Assembly (NCBI GenBank): GCA_003697045.1
Contig: RFGK01000160.1
Coordinates: 1 to 32,916, forward strand
Source of the DNA: Planctomycetota bacterium
GTDB lineage: Bacteria > Planctomycetota > Phycisphaerae > Phycisphaerales > UBA1924
DNA length: 32,916 nt
Reading direction: 5' to 3'
This document shows, piece by piece, positions 16,149 through 30,535 of this stretch. The notes beneath the pieces are model-generated. The model saw only the letters and a program-made list of their open reading frames with translations, searched no databases and was not told where the DNA came from. Made by a program: the position numbers and the translations under genes. Positions within the stretch are counted from its first letter, which is position 1. Each line of letters begins with the position of its first letter.

Positions 16149-18008
16149 CTACTTGATGAACTCGAAGTCCGCCAATCCTGCGGGCGCGCGGGCCTCATCC
16201 ATTGCCTTGCGGATTTCGACCAGGCGATTGACAATGGGCTTGGGATGGCCGCTGACACTGATCAGTCCGCCTCGTGGCATTTCGGCCGGCTGAGGCAGGT
16301 CGTACAGCTCCTGCCAGCACACACTCTGGACGAACGGCTTGGCAAGGGCGATGGACAGGGCCGCGGCTGCCCAGTCCGCCTGAACCTGCTCGCTCCAGGG
16401 CTTGCGCCAAAAACCCGGGTTGCAGTCCGCAAACTCGGGGTGTGCGACCGCCTCGGGTGTCCCGCTGGGCACACCGACCGCCGTAATGGCAATCGGCTTG
16501 TCGAGATTGGCGCAGCGGTCGAGCATGGCTGAAAACTCCATGAGATCACGAACGGACTGACCTTGTTCAGGCTGACCCATCTGTACGCGCACGGCAAACG
16601 AATCAACCATGATGCCCGCCTGAGTCAGCATCTCGGCATACAGGAGCGGCGGCAAGGAACGACGATTCGATGTGTAATACTCCCCCCACGGCTGCGTCAG
16701 CTCGACCTGCACCTTGCCCGCCGGATGCAGCTTGCGCACAACCATGACGCAAATCCGCGTCAGGTCCATCATCTGTTCAAAGGACAGTTGAAAGTTGCTG
16801 TTGGCATGCAGGCCGGAAACGATCGTCCAGCGCGCAATCGTGCGCCGATACCGAGTGACGATGTTCTTGACGTGCTCATAGATCAGCTCACGCAGGGTCT
16901 CGTAGTCATTTTCCCAGATGTAGAGCCAATCGGGGACGGACGCCGGCCTCAGGTCGATCACAGGCCCGGCCACAACGGGCAACTTGGCCTTGCGCACCGC
17001 CCATTCAATCCACTGGTCGGTGCTTTGAAAGCTGTATTTGCCCTCGGTCGGCTCCATCTCCGACCAGCGCATGGGCATGGACACAAACTCGCAGCACTGC
17101 AGCGCCACTTCCTGCGCTGTCTCAAAGAACGCCGAAGGCGAAATCGCACACCCAAGCGCCGGGCGGACGGGCAGAATCACCCCCACGCGATTGGGGCTGA
17201 GCAGCGCAGCCGCGTTTCCCCGAAGCGTCCGCTCGGCCGATCCACCCGGCTGATCCTCCAGCGCGCGACGGTGAATCTCACCGGACATGCGCGGGCCGAA
17301 CTCCTCGGCAGCACCGAGCAACGCAAGCCTCTCACCCGCTTCAATCGCAAGCCAGAGCGACCGAAGGGCAAGTCGATGGGCATCGGGCGAAAACCCCATA
17401 GTCTCCGGGCTCCCCTGCGCCCCCTCCCCAAGACCGTGACGCTGCGCCACCAACGCGTCGGTAAACGTCAAACGCGCCTGCTCGAACAGTTGCATGACCG
17501 GATGGTCGCGCGGCAGGTCAAAGAGCTGCCAATCTTCCAGCTTGTAGAGAAACAACATCAAGCGGTGACGGGCCAGCTCAAGCGACAGCAGATACGGCTC
17601 CTCACGCTCCGGGAGCAGGCACGTCTGAAGCGTCAATACTCCCAATGGTTTGAGCCGATCCGTCAGTGCTGCCGTCGTCTCCGATGCGGCGCCGTCCTGG
17701 TCATCCCTGGCCCCGGACGCCAACGCACGGCGCGCACGCTCGGCACGAACCTTCTCGCGAAACGCCTTCTCGTCCAGGTCTTCATCACCACTTCGAGCCG
17801 GCGCCAACTTGTGCAGCGCTTCCCTGTCCAGTTCGATCTGAAGAGAAAGCCCGGCAGCCTCGGGGTTGGTCTTGACACACTTGATCAGCCCGTCCTCAAA
17901 GCGAATCTCGCCGGCGACGGACACGTTGTCCGGGCCCACGAGATGGGCGTGGCGGACCTCAAACCTGCTCGCGGGAAGATCACCATCGAAGACAAGAAAA
18001 CTGAGCAT
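16149..18008 (-). CDS. GH10 (endo-xylanase fold)-like protein, apparently lacking catalytic glutamates
   Basis: MRWSEMEPTEGKYSFQSTDQWIEWA matches GH10 pattern; further collinear matches to GH10 strands. Start at 18008 (MLSFLVFDG) preceded by GAGGTGAGGA. Confidence 0.7.
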   Translation of the reverse strand: MLSFLVFDGDLPASRFEVRHAHLVGPDNVSVAGEIRFEDGLIKCVKTNPEAAGLSLQIELDREALHKLAPARSGDEDLDEKAFREKVRAERARRALASGARDDQDGAASETTAALTDRLKPLGVLTLQTCLLPEREEPYLLSLELARHRLMLFLYKLEDWQLFDLPRDHPVMQLFEQARLTFTDALVAQRHGLGEGAQGSPETMGFSPDAHRLALRSLWLAIEAGERLALLGAAEEFGPRMSGEIHRRALEDQPGGSAERTLRGNAAALLSPNRVGVILPVRPALGCAISPSAFFETAQEVALQCCEFVSMPMRWSEMEPTEGKYSFQSTDQWIEWAVRKAKLPVVAGPVIDLRPASVPDWLYIWENDYETLRELIYEHVKNIVTRYRRTIARWTIVSGLHANSNFQLSFEQMMDLTRICVMVVRKLHPAGKVQVELTQPWGEYYTSNRRSLPPLLYAEMLTQAGIMVDSFAVRVQMGQPEQGQSVRDLMEFSAMLDRCANLDKPIAITAVGVPSGTPEAVAHPEFADCNPGFWRKPWSEQVQADWAAAALSIALAKPFVQSVCWQELYDLPQPAEMPRGGLISVSGHPKPIVNRLVEIRKAMDEARAPAGLADFEFIK

Positions 18009-18123
18009 GCCGAACGCCGTCCTCACCTCAAGCAACAGGCCCGAGGGCAACTGTACGGGCCGATCCGCCCGGGGGCGAGTGTGGCGCTTCGACGCAGCAC
18101 TCGCAGGCAGGTACCATTATCCC

Positions 18124-19074
18124 ATGACCAGTGCCGCTCCCATCGAACGAGCCGTCCGCCGAACCGATCTGAACCTTCCCGACCGTCGAGAAGGCAAAGT
18201 ACGCGACATCTATCGCATTCCGGATGCCGACGACGGGCAGCCGGGCATGCTCCTGGTCGCAACCGATCGTATCAGTGCCTTTGACGTGATCCTCCCGACC
18301 GACATTCCGGGAAAGGGGGTGCTTCTCACCCAGATCGCTGCGTTCTGGTTGAGGAAGATCGAGCAGGCCGGCCTTTGCAAGACGCATCTGATCTCAACGG
18401 ACTACCGGCAGATCCCGGAGTCGGCCTTCGATGGTGCGACGACACGGCCGGAGGATCTTGACGGACGCTGCATGATCGGAAAGCTGTGCCGTGTTGTGCC
18501 GATCGAGTGTGTCGTCCGGGGATACCTCGAGGGATCGGGGTGGAAGGACTACCAGAAGACCGGTTCGGTGTGCGGCGTCGCGCTTCCCCCCGGGCTGCGC
18601 CAGTGTGATCGCCTTCCGGAACCCGTCTTTACCCCCGCCACCAAAGCCGAACAAGGCGAACACGATGAGAACATCTCCTTTGAGCGTGCCTGCCAGATCG
18701 CCGGCGTTGAAATGATGGAACATCTCAGGGAGCTGTCGCTGGCCATCTATCGCATGGCCTCGGAACACGCCGAATCGCGCGGGCTCATCATCGCCGACAC
18801 GAAGTTTGAGTTTGGCATTCCGCTCGACGGGGGCGACCCGATCCTGATCGACGAAGCGCTGACGCCCGACAGCTCGCGTTTCTGGCCGGCTGACGACTAC
18901 CAGCCCGGACGGGCCCAGCGCAGCTTTGACAAGCAGTTCGTGCGTGAGTATCTCCAGTCACTGGTCGATGCGGGCAAGTGGGACAAGACCGACCCCGGCC
19001 CGGAGCTCCCCGACTCGGTCGTCGCCGGGACGCTCGATCGCTATCGCGAGGCATGCGATCGCCTGTCTCGCTGA
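18124..19074 (+). CDS. purC: Phosphoribosylaminoimidazole-succinocarboxamide synthase
   Basis: REGKVRDIYRI, LLVATDRISAFDVILPTDIPGKGVLLTQ, PIECVVRGYLEGSGWKDY, DTKFEFGI; start refined to 18124. Confidence 0.97.
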   Translation: MTSAAPIERAVRRTDLNLPDRREGKVRDIYRIPDADDGQPGMLLVATDRISAFDVILPTDIPGKGVLLTQIAAFWLRKIEQAGLCKTHLISTDYRQIPESAFDGATTRPEDLDGRCMIGKLCRVVPIECVVRGYLEGSGWKDYQKTGSVCGVALPPGLRQCDRLPEPVFTPATKAEQGEHDENISFERACQIAGVEMMEHLRELSLAIYRMASEHAESRGLIIADTKFEFGIPLDGGDPILIDEALTPDSSRFWPADDYQPGRAQRSFDKQFVREYLQSLVDAGKWDKTDPGPELPDSVVAGTLDRYREACDRLSR

Positions 19075-19080
19075 GCACGC

Positions 19081-21048
19081 CTACTTCTGTTCGATGTTGA
19101 GCTGCTCAACAAACTGCCGCTCGGCTGCGCGCATCGCCTCGAGCTCGATGCGGAACTGTTCCATGCCCTCGGGTTCCGGGAAGATCTCATCAAACGGTCG
19201 GCTCTTGTTGGCTTTGGCAAGTTCCGTGATTGAGTCCTTGTAGAGTGCCACGATCATGTCGTATGCAAACTTCTTGAGATCATCGGGGGCGTAGAAGTAA
19301 AGCAGCTCGGCCTCATCCGGTGGAACAAGTTTGAACATCTCGGCAAACACAAGCCCCGCATACAGCCGAAAATCCTTGGGCATGTATTCCATGCGAGCAA
19401 CCGTCCCGCTTGCGACCATGGGGCGGTACTGTGTCTCCATGTAGTACTTGTGCACCTGCTTGGCGTAGTCGATACTCGCACGATACCGGTCCAGCTCTCC
19501 AACCAGCAGTGCCGAATAGGCCTGGTCGAGCGCCGCCGAGACCTCCTGCATGGCCACGCTTGGCGAACCGAACCGATCCCAGAGGTTGTGCTGGACGAAC
19601 TCGTCCAACGGCCTCGAATACTCGATCTCCTTGTCAGGGTCGTTGAGGTTCATCCCCTCGAAGTTGCGCAAGCGGTCATACCAGCGCTCGGCGGACTCGA
19701 TGTCACCGCGGCGGTAGAAGTTGCAGACGACATCCTTGAGGAAATTCTCGTATCCCGCCGCATACGGCGTCATTGCACGCCGGGTGCGATCCTCAAAGAT
19801 GCCCCCGAGACGCACAACCTGCTCATAAAGATCGCCATACGACTGCGCAAAGTAGAGGTTCGGCATCATCATGTAGTACCCTTCACCGGTCATTACGAAG
19901 TCGATGAAGTTGAAATACAGCCGCCCGCCGCGATACAGCTCCTGCAACGATTGCATGATGATGCGGTTTGTGTTGACGAAGTCGAACAGAGCCTTGTTTT
20001 CCTCGCTCACGCGGTTTTCGCCGCGCTCCACTCCCAGCGCCGACCAGTACAGCGCATGCGCCGCCGGCACGCGCCAGTCCACCGGGCCCCACCGACGCAC
20101 GAGCCTTTCCATTGCAGCCGGCGACATCTTGTACTCGTCAATGATCACCCGCTTGCGCGTGTGCGCGATCAATGCGTCCCAGGCCTGTTCGTATTGCGGA
20201 TCGGCCATGAGCTCCTGCAATGCTCTGCTCTTGGCTCCGAACTGGCTCATGATCATCTGGCCCTTGGGCGACTTGGCCAGCTCGATCTGCTGGGTGTATC
20301 GCTCGAGCAACTCCAGCCCGGGCTTGACCCCGACTCGCGATTGCAGCGCATCGAGCAAGGACTCGGCCTCCGGCACGCGCTCGATCAGCCCCCTCGTCGT
20401 GTCGGCGGCATCGGCTACCTTGCCGATCCAGTCCGCGTAGAGATCGATCACATCCTCGCGCGAGCGAGACTTGGCCTGGTTGATCGAAGGGGGCGCCCCC
20501 AGCACAATCTGCCACTCCTCAGCCACCTTGCGCTTGTAGTACTGGCTCGCATCGTCGGTGTACCCTCCGATCTTGTGGATGTAAATCCATGCAAGCTCCT
20601 TGTACAACAGCATCTCATTCGGATTTGCAGGAATCCCCTCGTCGCGCAGCAGGCGAATGCCGGCCTGCACCCACTGCCAGCGCTCCGAAGGCGTCTGCGT
20701 CACAACCGAGATGTTGTATGACATGTTCCACGCATGAAACGCCCACACGCGCGGAAAGCGAGGCTGCAACTGCGTGATCGCTCGCGCCAGCTCGATCGCC
20801 TCGTAGTACTTGCCTTCCTCCTTGAGTTCGTTGGCACGGATCCAGAGAATATTCACGAACAGGCCACGGAAAGCGCCCATGGCAATGCCCAGCGCCACCT
20901 GCGGCGGGTCTCCCTCCTCGGCCCGGTCCGTGTAGGCAAGCTGATTGCGTCCAACCGATCCTGCCAACACAAACGAAAGACTCGATGAGCCAACGAGCGC
21001 AACCAGCGCCACAGTGAGCGAAATCAGCTTGACTGTCCATCCTGACAT
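19081..21048 (-). CDS. Large membrane-anchored protein with TPR-like N-terminal helices, unknown function
   Basis: N-terminal TM (MSGWTVKLISLTVALVALVGSSSLSFVLAG) then GAFRGLFVNILWIRANELKEEGKYYEAIELARAITQLQPRFPRVWAFHAWNMSYNISV. Start uncertain (21048 or 21072). Confidence 0.75.
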   Translation of the reverse strand: MSGWTVKLISLTVALVALVGSSSLSFVLAGSVGRNQLAYTDRAEEGDPPQVALGIAMGAFRGLFVNILWIRANELKEEGKYYEAIELARAITQLQPRFPRVWAFHAWNMSYNISVVTQTPSERWQWVQAGIRLLRDEGIPANPNEMLLYKELAWIYIHKIGGYTDDASQYYKRKVAEEWQIVLGAPPSINQAKSRSREDVIDLYADWIGKVADAADTTRGLIERVPEAESLLDALQSRVGVKPGLELLERYTQQIELAKSPKGQMIMSQFGAKSRALQELMADPQYEQAWDALIAHTRKRVIIDEYKMSPAAMERLVRRWGPVDWRVPAAHALYWSALGVERGENRVSEENKALFDFVNTNRIIMQSLQELYRGGRLYFNFIDFVMTGEGYYMMMPNLYFAQSYGDLYEQVVRLGGIFEDRTRRAMTPYAAGYENFLKDVVCNFYRRGDIESAERWYDRLRNFEGMNLNDPDKEIEYSRPLDEFVQHNLWDRFGSPSVAMQEVSAALDQAYSALLVGELDRYRASIDYAKQVHKYYMETQYRPMVASGTVARMEYMPKDFRLYAGLVFAEMFKLVPPDEAELLYFYAPDDLKKFAYDMIVALYKDSITELAKANKSRPFDEIFPEPEGMEQFRIELEAMRAAERQFVEQLNIEQK

Positions 21049-21064
21049 CGCGCGGCTCCGTCTT

Positions 21065-22975
21065 TCACCCATGCCCGGAATAGATGGCCAGCTCACGCCT
21101 TCGGAACGTCACAACGCCGAGCCCATAGAGGACCAGTGTTGCAATCGCGAGCACCGATGCCCCCCCGATCACGCTGCCCCACGACATGAGCCGCCCGTCG
21201 ACCAGACGACTGATGGGCTGAAGGTCGGCGTATACGCTGAAGACGCTCGCCACGCGGGCCGACACCCACGCTGCGACCACCTTCCAGATCTGCGTGTTCC
21301 CTTCGTAATCTGTCGTCTTGTACAACTCGACCGACTTCGTGATAAACCCGGCCATCTCGGCCATGAGAAACACCGAAATCGACACCAGAGATGCGACCGA
21401 AAAGCTGAGGAATGTTGACGCCCAGATCGCCAGCATGGCCAGGAACGCCAGCTTGAGCCAGAGCACGGCCGTCACGCGCAGAAAGTTCATGCGATAACTG
21501 CCCGCGTCGTAACTGATCTGCAACCCGCCGGGTGGAAACGTGATCGTGCGAGGATTGGTGGCAATATACGCTTCTCCCTCGGGCGTCATGCCGAGTCGGC
21601 CATTGAAAATCCGGAGCGTCAACTCGCCGTCCTCGCTGATGTAGCCGGGAGAAATAGTGATCGTATGGTTGATCCCCAACGCCGTATTTCTTATCACCGG
21701 CGTGCCATCGGGAAGAAGAATCGTCAGCGTGAAAAACTCGTCCGGTCGATTTCCGCCGGAGTCAACGCGATATCGCAACGTCAACGGAAGGTTGTGGGCG
21801 CGGGCATATCCCAGGCCCTTGAACACAAAATCGACTCCCAAGCGCTCCTGCACCGGGTCGATCGACCGGAACGCCTGAACGGCACTCTTGAAAAGGTCAT
21901 CTTCGACCTTTTGACGCTCGGCCGGGTTCTTGGCAAAGTTCGGGTTTGCCCGCCGTTCGTTTGCGATGAACTGCTCAACGTTTCGTTTGAAGTCGGGATC
22001 ATCCTTGCTGTACGGCGACTCCGGCTCGACGCTGCGCCTCGCCGCGAGCACCTGTGTTTCCAGAATGAGCCGATCTTCGGTGACAACCCCCTCTGAGGCG
22101 CGATACGCCTCGCGCTCACCGACCGCGGGCTGCGCTCTCAGGTATTCGACAAACCCGAAGATCGCCGTGGCGCACACTGCAAGGAGCACGCCTTGCACCA
22201 CGACGATGCCGATCCATTTTCCCAGCAGGTACTGCCATGCCGCCACCGGCTTGGTGACAGTCTGCCAGATCACCCGCGAGCGCTGCTCTGTGGTCATCGT
22301 GGTGACACCAAAGACCAGCGTCAGCAGCGCTAACATCCAGAATGTCCCGCCCGTGGCATACTGCAGAAACGATTGCACCCGATACCGCAACGGCTGCGAC
22401 TCATCCAGGATGCCCGGAAGCGTCGCAAGCCCCAGAATAAGCAGCACGATGAACACCAGCGAGATCTTCATCCGCACCGCTTCGCTCAGCACGTTCCGAG
22501 CCACGCCCATGATGACGCCCGGCCCGGAAAAGAGCAACTCGGCCACGCGCATCAAAAGCAGAAACACCCACCCGAGTTGAGCGGCGCCGAAAATGATGAA
22601 CCCCAGCGCGCGGGTCTGCTCAAACTGCATCAACGGGACCGCCACGACTGCCGTCGCAGCCGTATACCCGACATACGTCAAGCCCAGCCCCAGCCACACG
22701 ACCGCGAGCAGCCCTGCTACCGAGCCGATTCCGGTCATGATGGCGATCGGGATCGGGTTTCCCCCGGAGATCACACGCCCGAGCACACGCCCGGCCTCGG
22801 AGTCCGGATCGACCCCCTCCAGCGTCGGCACCGCAAGCGAACCAGAGCTGACCCCCACCGCAATCGTCGCAGCAACCCCGATCGCAACCACCGCCAGCGC
22901 GATCGATGCGCCGATCTTGAACCCACGCCGCTTCTGAAAACGATCAATCGCATCCAGACGTGCCAACAGCTTCAC
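21065..22975 (-). CDS. ABC-2 family transporter permease with large extracytoplasmic/soluble insertion
   Basis: 636 aa, multiple TM segments; VFGVTTMTTEQRSRVIWQTVTKPVAAWQYLLGKWIGIVVVQG motif typical of ABC-2 permeases; ATGA overlap with ATPase gene. Confidence 0.85.
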   Translation of the reverse strand: MKLLARLDAIDRFQKRRGFKIGASIALAVVAIGVAATIAVGVSSGSLAVPTLEGVDPDSEAGRVLGRVISGGNPIPIAIMTGIGSVAGLLAVVWLGLGLTYVGYTAATAVVAVPLMQFEQTRALGFIIFGAAQLGWVFLLLMRVAELLFSGPGVIMGVARNVLSEAVRMKISLVFIVLLILGLATLPGILDESQPLRYRVQSFLQYATGGTFWMLALLTLVFGVTTMTTEQRSRVIWQTVTKPVAAWQYLLGKWIGIVVVQGVLLAVCATAIFGFVEYLRAQPAVGEREAYRASEGVVTEDRLILETQVLAARRSVEPESPYSKDDPDFKRNVEQFIANERRANPNFAKNPAERQKVEDDLFKSAVQAFRSIDPVQERLGVDFVFKGLGYARAHNLPLTLRYRVDSGGNRPDEFFTLTILLPDGTPVIRNTALGINHTITISPGYISEDGELTLRIFNGRLGMTPEGEAYIATNPRTITFPPGGLQISYDAGSYRMNFLRVTAVLWLKLAFLAMLAIWASTFLSFSVASLVSISVFLMAEMAGFITKSVELYKTTDYEGNTQIWKVVAAWVSARVASVFSVYADLQPISRLVDGRLMSWGSVIGGASVLAIATLVLYGLGVVTFRRRELAIYSGHG

Positions 22976-24234
22976 GCCTGCTTCTCCTCGCCGGCATCAT
23001 CCGAGTCGAGCAGAGAGTCAATCAGCCCGCGATCAATATCCGATGCCGTCGGCTTCTCTGGATCCGCTGCAACCTCAGGCTCTTCCGGCTCGGGCACCGA
23101 CTCCGAATCATCTTTCAGCAACGACTCGATCACTTCGTCTCGGTGTTCCAGGCCGTCGTCGTGCTCCTGCTTGCCTCTTGCAGAAGAAGAGGCGGCCGCG
23201 GCGGCCTCGGCGAGCAACTCGTCAACCGGGCGCGGCTCATCGCTGACCAGCCGTGCGATCAGTTCTTCTCCCTCGGCTTCTTCTTCACCCCTCAGGAATG
23301 CGGCCGTCTCGCCGCCATGCATTGCTCCGCTGGTTGAAGCACGCTCGGCCTGTGCGCGTTCGACGATTCCAAGGAACAACTCCTCGAGCCGTTGCCTCGG
23401 CTTGGTCACTTTGCGAATCGCCTTGTCACCTCCACTGCGAGTGCGGATCAACTCGTCAATCTCGGAGATGGTCTCGTCGTCGAGTTCGTCGGCCTCGATC
23501 GTCGTGGCATTCTTGCGCGTCAACAGCGCATCGCACGTACCTTCATCTCGCTTCTTGCCGCCATAGAGAATCACCATGCGATCGACCACGTCCTCGACAT
23601 CGGCCAGCAGGTGACTCGAAAGAATCACCGTCTTGCCTCGACGTCCCAGCTCGAGGATCAAGTCCTTCACTTGCCGCGTCCCGATCGGATCAAGTCCGGT
23701 CGTCGGCTCATCCAGAATGAGCAGGTCGGGATCGTTGATCAATGCCTGCGCAAGCCCGATGCGCCGCTGCATGCCCTTGGAATACTCTCGCACCGGACGA
23801 AACTGCGCATGACTCAGCCCCACCATATCAAGCAGTTCGTCGATCCGTCGCATGCGTGTGCGGCGTTCAAGGTGAAACAGCTTGCCGTAATAATCCAGCG
23901 TCTCGCGAGCATTGAGAAACTGATAGAGATACGACTCTTCCGGCAGATATCCGATTCGCTTCTTCGCCGCCACATCCGCCGGGGGGCGACCCAGCACGGC
24001 AATCCGCCCGCTCGTTGGACGCAAGAGCCCCAACATCAGCTTGATCGTCGTGCTCTTGCCCGATCCGTTCGGCCCCAACAAACCGAATATCTCGCGCGCG
24101 TTGACGTCAAAGCTCAGGTCATCCACGGCTCTGGCGCGATCACGCATCCAGAAGTCCTTGAAGACCTTCGTCAGTCGCCGACATTCAACGACCGGCTTGG
24201 ATTGACTCCCCGTGCTGGAGACCGACTCGACCAT
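22972..24234 (-). CDS. ABC transporter ATP-binding protein with acidic C-terminal extension
   Basis: Walker A GLLGPNGSGKSTT, signature YSKGMQRRIGLAQAL, Walker B LLILDEPTTGLDP; roughly 100-residue acidic/Ala-rich tail. Confidence 0.95.
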   Translation of the reverse strand: MVESVSSTGSQSKPVVECRRLTKVFKDFWMRDRARAVDDLSFDVNAREIFGLLGPNGSGKSTTIKLMLGLLRPTSGRIAVLGRPPADVAAKKRIGYLPEESYLYQFLNARETLDYYGKLFHLERRTRMRRIDELLDMVGLSHAQFRPVREYSKGMQRRIGLAQALINDPDLLILDEPTTGLDPIGTRQVKDLILELGRRGKTVILSSHLLADVEDVVDRMVILYGGKKRDEGTCDALLTRKNATTIEADELDDETISEIDELIRTRSGGDKAIRKVTKPRQRLEELFLGIVERAQAERASTSGAMHGGETAAFLRGEEEAEGEELIARLVSDEPRPVDELLAEAAAAASSSARGKQEHDDGLEHRDEVIESLLKDDSESVPEPEEPEVAADPEKPTASDIDRGLIDSLLDSDDAGEEKQA

Positions 24235-24262
24235 GAACCCTCGCCTTTGATCTCACCAGCGC

Positions 24263-25666
24263 TCAGCCGCCAGTGTCTCTGATGCCCTCTTCCGACTCAA
24301 ATCGCCGTTCCTCAATCTCTCGCGTGCGCTGCTCACGCATCTGCTTGACCTGGCGGCGAGCAGTATCGCGGTACATCTCCTTGAGAATCGAAGGATCAGC
24401 ATTGATCCGGATATCCGACAGCGCATCCTCCGGAAGCAGCATGGTCTGCAAGAACGGCTTGCCGGTCAACTCCTGGTATGCACTGACCCAGTCCCGATAC
24501 AGCATGAGCGTCGGGTTCGCCTCAAACTGCGCAACTTTCGCGTTGAAAATCTTCAAGTCAGCTTCGGCCAGCTCGCGTGTCTGCGTCGCAAGGCTGCGAG
24601 CCTGGCTGATGATCTCTGTCACTTCGCCCGTGGCAAGACCTTCCGGCACTACAATGTCCTCAAACTCGGCCGGCCGGCCCTCCAACACCGCATTGATCGT
24701 CGCCAGAATCTGCCCGGCCCGATCGACTTGTTCCAGCTCGACCGCGCTCTCATACCGTTGTATCAGCTCAATGAGCGTGTTCGTCGCCTCGCCGGCCACC
24801 TGTTGGAGCAGAATATCGCGCTCTCTCAATGCCGCATCGCGCTCGGCCTTGGCCTTGCTCGAGGCGCCCTGCACGCTGGCAAAGTTGGGGCGAAGACGAA
24901 TCGGAGCCGTCTTTCGATACAGTGTCACCTTGTCGATGACAATCCCGGCCCCCAGGTCTTCGTCGAGTGTGCGCTGCGCAATCTCCTTGATACGCGACGA
25001 GATCGTGCCGTCTTCACTTTCGCCGGCCTTGAGCAGATTGTCGATCGATGTCTCCGCAACAACACGCACGATCCCCCGCTGCACGACCGCTGTGACAATC
25101 GCCTTCTCCGCATCGGGGAGTATGTTTTCGGCAAACTGACGATGTCGCACGCGCCGATACTCTACCCGCCATTGCGCATGGGCCACGTTCAAATCCGCGG
25201 AGACCAGCGAGCCGTCCACGCCAGGCGTCAAGGAGGTCACCGCCGCCAGCTTGTCGATGGCCATCTCCTCCTGCCCCTCGCGCACCCCCGGCCAGTATTG
25301 ACTCATCAGCCCGAGCGTGGAAGTCGTCGCATCGACCTTGACAATCTCACCGATCGGAAACGGTGCGCTGAAATGCAGGCCCGGATCGAGCTGCTCGGCC
25401 GTTGGACGTCCAAAGAGCAACGGAATGCCGCGTTCCCCTTCGTCGATGCGCTGAATCCCGCTGAAGACGAACAGCAGTGCCAGCACCACCATCGCTGCCT
25501 GCACGATGGAGTAGGTAATGCGCAGCGCCTCGGCCAGCGACTGATTGGCCGGGTCCATCATCGCTTCGTCGCGATCCGAAACATCGCGCAACTGCATCGA
25601 CGCCGACCGAGACGACGCCGGCATGTCATCATCCCGCCCGGCATCGACGGGCTCGAGATCGCTCAT
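24263..25666 (-). CDS. SPFH/Band-7 protein, HflK-like
   Basis: TM then IDEGERGIPLLFGRP...LDPGLHFSAPFPIGEIVKVD, VTSLTPGVDGSLVSADLNVAHAQWRVEYR; coiled-coil region; ATGA overlap with upstream SPFH gene. Confidence 0.85.
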   Translation of the reverse strand: MSDLEPVDAGRDDDMPASSRSASMQLRDVSDRDEAMMDPANQSLAEALRITYSIVQAAMVVLALLFVFSGIQRIDEGERGIPLLFGRPTAEQLDPGLHFSAPFPIGEIVKVDATTSTLGLMSQYWPGVREGQEEMAIDKLAAVTSLTPGVDGSLVSADLNVAHAQWRVEYRRVRHRQFAENILPDAEKAIVTAVVQRGIVRVVAETSIDNLLKAGESEDGTISSRIKEIAQRTLDEDLGAGIVIDKVTLYRKTAPIRLRPNFASVQGASSKAKAERDAALRERDILLQQVAGEATNTLIELIQRYESAVELEQVDRAGQILATINAVLEGRPAEFEDIVVPEGLATGEVTEIISQARSLATQTRELAEADLKIFNAKVAQFEANPTLMLYRDWVSAYQELTGKPFLQTMLLPEDALSDIRINADPSILKEMYRDTARRQVKQMREQRTREIEERRFESEEGIRDTGG

Positions 25667-26679
25667 TGCCCGCCTCCCTCACCCGCGTTTGAAAGCCCAT
25701 CGTCCAGCTTGTCGAAATCAATGGGCACTTCGCCCTCGCCGATATCACGAAGCGCTGCCGGACTGAACAGATTCAATCCAAAGTCCTTCACACTGAGCAC
25801 CAGCGTGACCCGCTTGGCAAGCACATCCCGCATCATCTCAAGATTCTGGATAAACACCGCCAGCTCCGGGTGCGTCTGCTGCTGACGCAGAAACTGTGCA
25901 GCTTCCTGTTCGCCCCGCGCGATGATCTCCTTGGCACGGCTTTCCGCAAACGCACGGATGCGCTGCGCATCGGCCTGGGCCGATGCCTGGATGGTCCGGG
26001 CGATGGCCTGCCCTTCGCTTGTGTACTGGCTCGCCAGGCGATCGCGGTTCGCTGCCATTCTGTTCATCACCGTCTCCGTGGTCTGCTCCGGAAGCACGAT
26101 CCGGTCGATTCCGACCAACGTGACTTCGATGCCGTAGGCATCCAGGCTCTCGCCCGCATCGCTTTCGCCGCTCATCAGGCGAAGCACGTCCTGCTCAAGT
26201 TCCGGCAGACGCGAGCCACCGACCCTCTCGACAAACAGGTCATCCATGCGATACTTGCTCGTCTCCCCCAGTGCGGCCCGCAGACGCGAACTGAGCATAA
26301 CCTCGGCCGCACGAAAGTGGTCGATCGGGCGGCTGCCCGCATTGCTGAACCGTCGATAGAACGCCAACGGGTCGGACACGCGGTAGGTCGCAAACCCTTC
26401 CACGATCAACTGAAAATCGTCCGCCGTCTGCTGCGTCTCACTCCGCGCCTGCAACAGACGTACGCGCGTATCGTACTTGGTCACCGACTGAATCGGGTAC
26501 GGCCACTTGAAATGCAACCCCGGCTCCGAGCGGTTTGACCCCTCCCCACTGGCCTTGCCGAAGGTTGTCACCACCGCAGCCTCGGTAAACCGAACGCTGT
26601 AACTCGACGCAAACGCCAGCAGCGCGAGCACAAACAGCCCCGCAACGGTCCACAGCACGAATCTCTTCATCTTCTTCAC
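25663..26679 (-). CDS. SPFH/Band-7 protein, HflC-like
   Basis: TM then VRFTEAAVVTTFGKASG...EPGLHFKWPYPIQSVTKYDTRVRLLQ, DYGIEVTLVGIDRI-like segment (LDAYGIEVTLVGIDRIVLPEQTTETVMNRMAANRDRLASQYTSEGQA). Confidence 0.9.
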   Translation of the reverse strand: MKKMKRFVLWTVAGLFVLALLAFASSYSVRFTEAAVVTTFGKASGEGSNRSEPGLHFKWPYPIQSVTKYDTRVRLLQARSETQQTADDFQLIVEGFATYRVSDPLAFYRRFSNAGSRPIDHFRAAEVMLSSRLRAALGETSKYRMDDLFVERVGGSRLPELEQDVLRLMSGESDAGESLDAYGIEVTLVGIDRIVLPEQTTETVMNRMAANRDRLASQYTSEGQAIARTIQASAQADAQRIRAFAESRAKEIIARGEQEAAQFLRQQQTHPELAVFIQNLEMMRDVLAKRVTLVLSVKDFGLNLFSPAALRDIGEGEVPIDFDKLDDGLSNAGEGGGQ

Positions 26680-26722
26680 AGTCCTTGCTCCTGTTCAGAG
26701 CACCTGCTCAACTCGAAAAACT

Positions 26723-28807
26723 TCATTCGGGCTCCCCTGCCGAGGGATCAAAGATCGGCGTCGCCGCGTCTTTATCCTGAAGCTCGATTGTGATATTCCC
26801 GATGCGCTCGGGAACGATGTAGACGCGAGCGTCCGCCATCGCCTGGGAAAGCGCTTCAAAGTACTTCTTGGCGCGGTACACCTGCGGTGCCGCCTCATAC
26901 GAGGCCACCTGTCCCTCGTGCAGCGCAGCCTGTCCGCGCTCACCCATGTGCCGCGCCCACCGCGTCGCGCTGGCCTCGATCAACTGCGCCCCCATCTCTC
27001 CGCCAGCAGATTCAAGATCGTGCTGAATCTCCAGACGATGGGCCGCAATTTCCTCTTCACTGGCGCCCGAAGCAATCAGCACGTCCAGCTGATCCAGCTT
27101 GCGGGCGATCCGCTCGGCCATCTCCACCGACCCGGCAGCCTTCGCCAACAGTTCGATCTTCTTCTGCTGCGCATCTTCAATCGCCATTTCCATCTTCTGA
27201 CGATCGCTGACCACCTGCTCATACTTGGGCGCCACCTTCATCGGAGGATGCACACCCTCCACACCCACAAACAGAATCTCAATCCCCGCGCCCTGGCCGT
27301 CATTCAGCTTGCCGAACTCCGCTTCGAGCAATGAGCGCAGCTTCGCTGCCAGGCCCGTCCGATCGGTCGCCAGCACATGGTCAATCGAAAGCGTGCCCGC
27401 ATATTGCATGACCGCCCGACGCCCGATCGCAGTGAGCAGCTCGTCACGCATCTCCGGCGAAGCTATCTGGTCAAACAGCCGAACGTTTGACACCACATAT
27501 TGCACCGGCACCTCGACCGCCACCAGCGCCACATCCGGCGCACCGGTGTCCTCCTTGACTTCATCTTCACCGACATGTGACGGCTGAACGATGAGGAACT
27601 GCTCGTTGAGTGCGTGCTGTTTTGTCCACAGGATGGGGCCCTGCTCATTGTCCGGGGGGTTGGTACCGATGTGCAGAACACGCACTCCCGCGGTCGTCTT
27701 CGTCTTGGTGACGACCTCCTTGTCACCCACCTTGGTCCTCTGGGTGTACTCGGGGATTTCGATGGTACTGATCGGCCACGGCCACTTGACATGCAGCCCC
27801 GGCCCGACATCCTCGCGGGTGATCTTGCCCCACGTCAGGATCATGGCTCGCTGGTGCGGCTCAACCACCACAAGCCCCGTCAGCAACCATCCCGTCACGA
27901 TCGCCACTGCCCCCAGCGCCACGACGGACCGACTCAGAAGCTGATAGAACCATGTGCCCGTCACGTCGACGCCGAACTGGTAGTTGATGGCCTCGCCCAG
28001 TGATTCGGCGATCTTGTCCGGAGCGGCCAGGAATCCCAGCACACGCGAGTCAAACGCCGGACGCGGCAGTTCCCCCGGACGCCGGGGGCGATACACATCG
28101 AGCGCGAAGTTCACCACAATCTCGCACCCGAGCACAATCATCACTACGGAATACACCCCGGGCAGGTAGCGAAGCGCGACATCTTCGCTGCCGGCGTACC
28201 CGATGAAATGGGCCACCGCCATCGCCAGTCCGAACAGGGCACTTCCCACCGCGAACGCGGCGCCCGCTCGCAGGCTGGCCCAGACCTTCTGCTTGGCCAT
28301 CCCCGCCACAAACCGCGCAAAGACAAAACCAACGAACGCGGCACCAATTCCGATCGCGATGGCCCAGCCCGCCAGATCATTGGTGACCGCATCATCCTGC
28401 GCCGCAACCTGGCGAGCGGGGCCGAATCGCCACCACCCCGCCCCGATCAGCGCCAGGGCAATGACCAGGCTGATCCCCGGCACGAAATATCGCTGCATGA
28501 ACGCCAGACGCCGCGCCGCCTCACGTATCTCGTCTTCGCTGGTCTGAAACGCACTGCCCGTATCACTTGCCGCCAGCGATTCGATTTCCAGCGCCTCAAG
28601 CCGCTCACGCCGATGCAGATCAAACATGATCCCCAGCGCAAGCCACACCAGCAGACCGATCCCCAGGTACAGCGATGCCGTAAACGCAGCCACGTCCTTG
28701 GCATACTGGCTGTAGATCAGAAACGCCAGCGTGAGAAGGAGTTGAATGAAGAACCCCAGGATCGACACCGAGGCCCCACGTCGGAAGGTCAGATAGTCGG
28801 CTTTCAT
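26723..28807 (-). CDS. SPFH/Band-7 protein, HflK-like, with polytopic N-terminal membrane domain
   Basis: 694 aa; several TM segments in the first ~330 aa, then VVVEPHQRAMILTWGKITREDVGPGLHVKWPWPISTIEIPEYTQR and SPFH core. Confidence 0.88.
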   Translation of the reverse strand: MKADYLTFRRGASVSILGFFIQLLLTLAFLIYSQYAKDVAAFTASLYLGIGLLVWLALGIMFDLHRRERLEALEIESLAASDTGSAFQTSEDEIREAARRLAFMQRYFVPGISLVIALALIGAGWWRFGPARQVAAQDDAVTNDLAGWAIAIGIGAAFVGFVFARFVAGMAKQKVWASLRAGAAFAVGSALFGLAMAVAHFIGYAGSEDVALRYLPGVYSVVMIVLGCEIVVNFALDVYRPRRPGELPRPAFDSRVLGFLAAPDKIAESLGEAINYQFGVDVTGTWFYQLLSRSVVALGAVAIVTGWLLTGLVVVEPHQRAMILTWGKITREDVGPGLHVKWPWPISTIEIPEYTQRTKVGDKEVVTKTKTTAGVRVLHIGTNPPDNEQGPILWTKQHALNEQFLIVQPSHVGEDEVKEDTGAPDVALVAVEVPVQYVVSNVRLFDQIASPEMRDELLTAIGRRAVMQYAGTLSIDHVLATDRTGLAAKLRSLLEAEFGKLNDGQGAGIEILFVGVEGVHPPMKVAPKYEQVVSDRQKMEMAIEDAQQKKIELLAKAAGSVEMAERIARKLDQLDVLIASGASEEEIAAHRLEIQHDLESAGGEMGAQLIEASATRWARHMGERGQAALHEGQVASYEAAPQVYRAKKYFEALSQAMADARVYIVPERIGNITIELQDKDAATPIFDPSAGEPE

Positions 28808-28963
28808 CTGGACCGTTTACCCCGCTCGAAGCGACACGAGCTCCTGCCCGCATCCGGCTTCGTTGCCTGTCGACTCAACCAGAACAACCACACGCAGAGT
28901 TGCGCATGGCACTGCCTCGCTCGCAGCCCCCTGCGGTGGGGGTCTATTCTCGCCCGCTGACCA

Positions 28964-28983
28964 CCCGGTTTCCACCAACCGGG
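28964..28983. repeat. Perfect 7-bp inverted repeat in divergent intergenic region
   Basis: CCCGGTT-TCCACC-AACCGGG between the divergent SPFH gene (28807) and ABC-2 permease (29180). Confidence 0.6.
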
Positions 28984-29179
28984 CTTGCGATCGCACTTCT
29001 CCGCTGACGCGCGAACCTGCACTGGACTGTGAGCATACAACCATCAGCACATGCCTGCCGGGGGCGCACACCGCTGATACGACTCTGCCCGGCGATGGTT
29101 CGCGCCCGGACCGGCTGTCCCGGATACCATCGCTCCCGTCCTTCAGCCCAAAGACCGGACGCACGCACCAATCCCGCCC

Positions 29180-30535
29180 ATGTTCCAGACGCTCAACATC
29201 GCCAAGAACACGCTCACCGAGAGCCTTCGACAGCCGGTCGTGTTCATCATCGTGTTCGTCTCCGGAATTCTGCAAATCCTCAGTGTCTGGTGGTCCGCCT
29301 ACTCCATGGGCTACCGCTCCGAACCCGGAGACGTCACAGCCGACGACAAGCTCCTCTTTGACATCGGGCTGTCCACAATCTTCGTCTGTGGCATGCTCCT
29401 GGCCGCCTTCATCTCAACCGCCGTTCTCAGCCGTGAAATCGAGAACAAGACCATCCTCACCATGGTCTCCAAGCCATTGCCACGCGCAGCCGTCGTCGTC
29501 GGCAAGTTCCTCGGCGTCTCGGCCGCCATGCTCATCGCCGTGACCGTCATGCTCACCTTTCTCATGCTCGCACTGCGCCACGGCGTGCTCTCGACCGCTG
29601 CCGACGACCCCGATCAGCCCGTCTGGGTCCTCGGGATGGGCGCCGTATTCCTCTCGCTGCTCATCTCCACCATCGGAAACTACCTCTATTCCTGGTCTTT
29701 TCCTCAAACGGCAATGCTCACGCTCACCCCCCTCTCGCTGGCTGCCTACATCGGCGTGCTGCTGCTCAGCAAGAAATGGGAAGTGCAGCCCATCGCCACC
29801 GACTTCAAGGGCCAGGTCCTGATCGCCTGCCTCGCGATGACCGCAGCCATACTCGTCATGACCGCAGTTGCCATCGCCGCCTCGACACGGCTCGGACAGG
29901 TCATGACGATCGTCGTATGCACCGGCGTCTTTATCCTCGGACTTCTGACCAACTACTTCTTCGGACGCATCGCCTTCCAGAACGAACCCATCGCCACCAT
30001 CGCCGAATCATGGCCGATTGATCCGCTCCACGACACATTGACCCAATCAGGGGAGCGCTACGGAGTCCGCCTCATCACTCCCCCGGAAGTGGAGCTGGCC
30101 CGGGGCATGCAGTTTCTCTACGGCCCTTCACCGAACGGCATCGGAACCTCGAACGACTGGTCCCCCGTCACCCCACCCGAAGAAGTCCTCGAAAACGATC
30201 TCTTCTCCCCTGACACGCCCCGCGCGATCGTCATCCTCGAAGTTGACGACCTGACGCTCACTATCCGAAACATCGGCTCGCCGCCGGCAAAAGTGCGACG
30301 CCCCCCGATGCCGGGGGACTATGTCTTTGCCGAGCCGACGAAAATCAACCCTGCTGCAGCCGCCATTTGGGCCGTGACGCCCAACATGCACTTCTTCTGG
30401 CTCGTCGATGCCGTCTCGCAGGCTCGTTCGATTCCGCTCGGGCACCTCGGACTCATCGCCGCCTATGCAGCCTGTCTGATTGTCGCCTGTCTGGGCATTG
30501 CCGTGGCCTTGTTTCAGGGTCGCGACGTCGGCTGA
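29180..30535 (+). CDS. ABC-2 family transporter permease
   Basis: 451 aa; MFQTLNIAKNTLTESLRQPVVFIIVFVSGI, STAVLSREIENKTILTMVSKPLPRAAVVVGKFLGV typical of ABC-2 permeases. Confidence 0.88.
   Translation: MFQTLNIAKNTLTESLRQPVVFIIVFVSGILQILSVWWSAYSMGYRSEPGDVTADDKLLFDIGLSTIFVCGMLLAAFISTAVLSREIENKTILTMVSKPLPRAAVVVGKFLGVSAAMLIAVTVMLTFLMLALRHGVLSTAADDPDQPVWVLGMGAVFLSLLISTIGNYLYSWSFPQTAMLTLTPLSLAAYIGVLLLSKKWEVQPIATDFKGQVLIACLAMTAAILVMTAVAIAASTRLGQVMTIVVCTGVFILGLLTNYFFGRIAFQNEPIATIAESWPIDPLHDTLTQSGERYGVRLITPPEVELARGMQFLYGPSPNGIGTSNDWSPVTPPEEVLENDLFSPDTPRAIVILEVDDLTLTIRNIGSPPAKVRRPPMPGDYVFAEPTKINPAAAAIWAVTPNMHFFWLVDAVSQARSIPLGHLGLIAAYAACLIVACLGIAVALFQGRDVG

Follow-up and report, generated by a model that had tools for sequence, protein, structure and literature searches.

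An SPFH gene trio within an ABC-2 exporter operon of Planctomycetota and its apparent descent from a metal-pump operon

Why should genes for three proteins resembling HflK and HflC lie among the genes of an ABC-2 exporter, with no gene for FtsH in sight? The window analysed here, a stretch of 32,916 nucleotides from a planctomycete assembly of 2.83 Mb in 292 contigs, raises this question through a block of seven genes. The list of genes and their positions given in an initial annotation are borne out by Pfam, NCBIfam and PDB searches, which agree on two HflK-like proteins, one HflC-like protein, an ABC ATPase and ABC-2-type permeases.

Gene layout and the SPFH proteins

On the minus strand, the SPFH trio hflK1 (26723-28807), hflC (25663-26679) and hflK2 (24263-25666) precedes abcA (22972-24234), encoding an ABC ATPase, abcP1 (21065-22975), encoding an ABC-2-type permease, and tpr (19081-21048), encoding a TM-anchored repeat protein. 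A second ABC-2 permease gene, abcP2 (29180-30535), lies on the plus strand, and the 372 bp between the divergent hflK1 and abcP2 (28808-29179) presumably hold both promoters. Two gene overlaps had been described as ATGA; this is correct for hflC/hflK2, whereas abcA/abcP1 share GTGA because the start codon of abcP1 is GTG. The terminal ORF of 671 aa is present and its product membrane-anchored as described, but the GTG with which it opens lies inside abcP1, and the true start is likely the ATG at 21048, giving a protein of 655 aa.

An SPFH/Band 7 domain is found above the Pfam cut-off in hflK1 (Band_7, 44.9 bits) and in hflC (Band_7, E 2e-26). The divergent third protein, hflK2, is assigned through TIGR01933 alone (E 1e-16), Pfam Band_7 giving no report. 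The NCBIfam equivalog cut-offs are reached by none of them, with 70.2 for hflK1 and 61.0 for hflK2 against 159.4, and 96.0 for hflC (TIGR01932, E 2e-27) against 134.4. A single N-terminal TM precedes the SPFH domain in hflC and in hflK2, where about 46 residues lie ahead of it, whereas hflK1 has seven hydrophobic segments: a CDF-like six-TM domain (about aa 1-240) and a seventh TM (about aa 290-310), which leads into the SPFH domain (about aa 313-580) and a helical C-terminus. In a structure search with a predicted model of hflK1 (pLDDT 86.7), the SPFH half matches E. coli HflK/HflC. By analogy with these proteins, the trio should form a periplasmic cage or wall. The likeness to the E. coli HflK/HflC-FtsH system extends to the sequence and fold of the SPFH domain, and to a cage presumed to be periplasmic. 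The window trio differs from that system in lacking an ftsH partner gene, in comprising three SPFH proteins instead of two, in the extra CDF-like domain of hflK1 and in its scores under the equivalog cut-offs.

Could the trio nevertheless be the HflK/HflC of this lineage, regulating FtsH from a position beside the exporter that has no functional meaning? We consider this quite unlikely. The three proteins are recognisably HflK/HflC-like and the genome holds one FtsH but no other HflK/HflC, its one further Band_7 gene being a separate one on contig C220; however, all three score far below the equivalog cut-offs, hflK1 carries seven TMs and a CDF-like domain, and P. aeruginosa possesses a true hflKC operon in addition to a separate three-SPFH operon (PMC13086221). 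The absence of ftsH from the window, as first annotated, is confirmed, the single copy in the genome lying on contig C280. Pairing of the trio with FtsH elsewhere, which had been proposed as a sign against a tie to the transporter, is almost absent: a single locus (L097) has ftsH close to the trio, and FtsH pairing was rejected as a rule for the trio. The product of the C220 gene (L141:7531-9093), the sole other Band_7 gene of the genome, has about 520 aa and is flotillin-like by appearance.

The polytopic half of hflK1 points in another direction. Foldseek returns CDF transporters (ZnT, SLC30A10, YiiP) for the hflK1 model at probabilities of 0.97-1.00, but with E-values of 1.7e-3 to 0.16, and on the predicted model these matches would be assigned to the polytopic first half. 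In hhalign, the N-terminal profile aligns with planctomycete CDF proteins over 183 colinear columns (P 5.8e-5, probability 66%); two membrane families used as controls align over shorter stretches, with P 0.042 and 0.11. Of the 55 members of the N-terminal alignment, 8 touch Pfam Cation_efflux, more than touch any other family (best E 1e-4). The N-terminal half of hflK1 is probably, though not provably, a distant CDF homologue. With zinc transporters of this family (YiiP, ZnT) it would share the predicted six-TM fold and the colinear profile match, but it is fused to an SPFH domain and has no conserved H/D at the positions aligned with the CDF metal ligands in TM2 and TM5. CDF domains have cytoplasmic ends; therefore, the seventh TM would give the SPFH domain of hflK1 a periplasmic location like that in HflK/HflC.

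The exporter and its linkage to the SPFH genes

The abcA product, an ABC ATPase of the NosF/DrrA type (ABC_tran, E 2e-32, 113.1 bits against a cut-off of 25), carries a long and acidic tail at its C-terminus. Its nearest matches among solved structures are ABCA-type and NosF domains, NosF being the best bacterial match (E 2e-50). The abcP2 product scores above the cut-off for ABC2_membrane_2 (41.2 against 27.2 bits), a Pfam family that includes NosY. abcP1, with a large loop domain at about aa 283-496, is recognised as an ABC-2-type permease by its TM pattern and by scores just under the Pfam cut-offs (ABC2_membrane_3, 26.3 against 31.6 bits; ABC2_membrane_2, 24.7 against 27.2 bits). The tpr product is predicted to be all-helical (pLDDT 90.3, pTM 0.88) and is probably periplasmic; its sequence gives weak TPR matches only (TPR_14), and a fold search against the PDB gave no match at E <= 0.001, just generic TPR/HAT superhelices. 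PDB sequence-profile searches with the abcP1 and TPR profiles likewise gave no meaningful matches.

NosDFY is a transporter for nitrous oxide reductase maturation, in which NosD is a beta-helical periplasmic protein. The window exporter resembles it in that abcA is nearest to NosF among bacterial solved structures and in that the abcP2 profile touches NosY weakly (E 0.4). It differs in its two different permeases, in an accessory protein that is predicted to be all-helical where NosDFY has the beta-helical NosD, and in that no N2O reductase genes are seen in the window. As a guess, the exported substrate would be an envelope component.

For abcP2, the initial annotation noted no ATPase of its own in the window. 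The four genes abcP2, abcA, abcP1 and tpr form a contiguous, SPFH-free core in Lentisphaerae, Kiritimatiellae, Verrucomicrobia and several Planctomycetota, and since abcP2 adjoins abcA-abcP1-tpr in these loci, it is most likely an exporter subunit. The idea of a missing ATPase for abcP2 was rejected on the same gene order, by which abcP2 most likely shares abcA. Other planctomycetes encode abcP2 in the direction of the operon (for example L096, L121, L122, L124, L127-L129, L131 and L132), and the opposite orientation seen in the window most likely reflects an inversion.

In Planctomycetota, SPFH genes sit within this four-gene core. Species genomes were searched with the TPR protein and the loci then annotated by HMM. 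Among these tpr-selected loci, those labelled Phycisphaerae and sufficiently long have the order abcP2 - hflK1 - hflC - hflK2 - abcA - abcP1 - tpr, with L067, L071 and L076 as rearranged or reduced exceptions. Since a set found through tpr is biased towards tpr, a second set was picked solely by hflK2; by hand count, exporter genes lie beside the trio in 42 of its 47 informative loci, while five loci hold trio genes and a P-type ATPase with no adjoining ABC core (one of them at a contig edge). All seven genomes of the family to which the window belongs (7/7) keep the link between trio and exporter, with the P-type ATPase unlinked. Given the identical order in dozens of genomes, the seven-gene block is not a chance arrangement, and the co-conservation of SPFH and ABC genes, which the initial annotation had put forward as its own test, extends across Planctomycetota. 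Three loci labelled as Cyanobacteria (L036, with an identity of about 70% to the window), Dehalococcoidia (L043) and Verrucomicrobia (L092) hold typical Planctomycetota versions of the block genes and are probably mislabelled or contaminated bins.

A joint function of trio and exporter appears moderately likely, and we infer that an SPFH cage could enclose the exporter. The exporter core and the trio are each also found on their own, which means that neither forms a constant part of the other. Furthermore, the existence of SPFH-free exporter cores, including L076, means that the trio is not required for export as such. SPFH-free cores are common and the linkage state has switched several times on the tree, which would suit an exporter that acts alone within a slowly decaying old operon. 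We regard this explanation as very improbable: linked loci come from several families and classes and have gene orders that are rearranged yet adjacent, through inversion of abcP2 or with the P-type ATPase at the other end, and drift in gene order leaves the difference in the ATPase tail, described below, unexplained.

A P1B-type ATPase as the wider partner of the trio

The initial annotation tied the trio to the exporter and overlooked an older and wider partner, a P1B-type ATPase of the HmtA type. Planctomycetes of other orders and classes carry, between hflK2 and abcA, a gene for a P1B heavy-metal ATPase of about 650 aa; in a second group of loci this gene is placed beyond abcP2. SPFH and ATPase genes stand between abcP2 and abcA, all in one direction, in L096, L122, L124, L127-L129, L131 and L132. 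A set of hflK, hflC, a third SPFH gene and the ATPase, with no exporter, is found on plasmids of Paraburkholderia, Burkholderia, Klebsiella and Rhizobium; the first SPFH protein of these Pseudomonadota copies is likewise polytopic, and the trio order K-C-K is common to the window and the plasmid loci L136, L143 and L144. Two of the plasmid cassettes are on conjugative plasmids, and one cassette lies beside zinc-uptake genes. In both deep Planctomycetota and Pseudomonadota, the trio is followed by the P1B-type ATPase. L143 and L144, from Burkholderia ubonensis and Klebsiella aerogenes, are the conjugative-plasmid loci; the trio and the ATPase lie close to transposases there, and the trio-ATPase cassette is therefore probably mobile.

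A related arrangement has been studied in P. aeruginosa, in which HmtA is PA2435 and PA2437-PA2439 are annotated as members of the HflC/HflK family. In a znuA mutant, PA2435-PA2439 are elevated 5.6- to 14.4-fold (PMC4542158); the promoter of PA2439 is bound by Zur (PMC8531726), and proteins of the hmtA operon are elevated upon zinc depletion (PMC11761036). The three-SPFH operon mentioned above, PaFlo5-PaFlo7 of strain PA14, is probably this hmtA operon, PA2439-PA2435. With three HflK/HflC-like genes and a P1B ATPase it resembles the Pseudomonadota plasmid copies, and it differs from the window in having no ABC exporter. The trio genes of the window appear to descend from this type of zinc/copper-pump operon, also found in Pseudomonas.

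No P1B ATPase gene adjoins the trio in the window, and a related one lies on contig C91 (L163). The same holds for each of the seven genomes in the window's family, which all have one such ATPase away from the trio; in the tree, these unlinked ATPases group with those of linked loci and of Pseudomonadota (95/82). The reading that the genome has lost the P-type ATPase was accordingly rejected, the gene being unlinked but present. While the ATPases of the Pseudomonadota plasmids keep the CPC motif, that of the window's genome, encoded elsewhere than the trio, reads CPT, and those of its relatives CPS or VPA; the catalytic motifs are intact. In the VPA form both cysteines of CPC are gone (ATPases examined: C91/L163 and L158-L161).

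The main rival to a trio that works with the exporter is that the trio primarily partners the P1B-type ATPase in metal transport of the HmtA type, with the exporter sharing the operon as a neighbour, perhaps devoted to the same envelope or metal task and without direct contact. No other partner of the trio is as widespread as the ATPase, which accompanies it in every Pseudomonadota cassette seen and in the majority of planctomycete trio loci, those free of ABC genes among them; the HmtA operon is zinc-responsive, the first SPFH protein carries a CDF-like domain, and a related ATPase is still encoded in the window's genome, on another contig. However, the ATPase has left the block in the window's family while the link between trio and exporter stayed in all seven genomes, its CPC motif has changed there, the CDF-like domain is devoid of metal ligands, and the abcA tail accompanies the trio. 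We view a primary partnership with the ATPase as unlikely. On balance we favour, as slightly more probable than not, a trio that would act as a periplasmic SPFH scaffold, derived from a metal-pump operon and now working with the exporter.

The abcA tail and a model of joint function

The tail of abcA, encoded on the minus strand at 22972-23300 (start approximate), contains three copies of a hydrophobic motif, [VIL][IL]xxL[VLMTAI], namely LIARLV, VIESLL and LIDSLL. Across loci the tail is variable and acidic, with up to four copies; 63 tails hold 148 motifs, compared with 15.9 expected from shuffled tails (shuffle maximum 30). At SPFH-linked loci, at least two motifs are present in 58 of 64, one in four and none in two, whereas 26 of the 28 loci scored as lacking SPFH genes have no motif and two have at least two. 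Both of these exceptions are special cases: L061 ends at a contig edge and retains part of hflK2, and L076 has probably lost the trio recently. The association between tail and SPFH genes is strong when related loci are counted as independent (Fisher p 5e-15); among independent pairs (n=3), 2.4 on average change in the same direction and none in the opposite one, numbers so small that the link cannot reach significance once corrected for relatedness. Since the motif was also defined post hoc on SPFH-linked tails, the association is a lead and not a test. The Phycisphaeraceae locus L076, a possible natural deletion of the trio, retains both exporter core and tail in the absence of SPFH genes, so the tail is not strictly dependent on the trio. 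In L232-L236, where the TPR gene and the trio are on separate contigs, no ABC ATPase lies near the TPR gene, and these genomes contribute no tail to the comparison.

Given these patterns, we propose a model of two modules. The first would be a single ABC-2 exporter, consisting of the permeases abcP1 and abcP2, the ATPase abcA and the TM-anchored tpr, which probably faces the periplasm. The second would be a three-protein SPFH complex of hflK1, hflC and hflK2, the first member of which carries a ligand-free CDF-like six-TM domain. In Planctomycetota, this second module and its P-type ATPase may have been inserted into the exporter operon, and in the window's family the ATPase gene would later have moved away. 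The trio may now scaffold or gate the exporter, around or beside it, with the abcA tail as a putative cytoplasmic contact. Since the SPFH domains should be periplasmic and the tail cytoplasmic, direct docking between the two is precluded. More speculatively, a retired metal-transport apparatus, represented by the ligand-free CDF fold and the CPC-altered P1B ATPase, could have become an SPFH scaffold that controls the ABC-2 exporter, with the multivalent motif tail docking on its cytoplasmic face; this extended version is a tentative one that we hold to be rather doubtful.

Seen more broadly, the block would represent a known SPFH-plus-pump cassette inserted into a known type of exporter, with perhaps a re-dedication to the exporter in the window's family. 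Our search, directed at the open literature, gave no description of the SPFH-ABC block, the CDF-like/SPFH fusion or the abcA tail. The block bears on what bacterial SPFH cages contain besides FtsH, with the P1B-type ATPase and the ABC-2 exporter as its two candidate clients. If the joint function is true, an SPFH cage may have switched the machine it serves from a metal pump to an exporter. One study relates the PA2437-PA2439 proteins of P. aeruginosa to FtsH; the block suggests that they serve HmtA rather than FtsH. The abcA tail is a removable sequence feature through which contact between the modules can be probed. Beyond tpr, a PurC-like gene and a GH10-like gene adjoin the block in the window (16149-19074); both neighbours are kept in closer relatives (e.g. 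L036-L041, L044-L046, L053, L059 and L064) and are not kept in distant loci.
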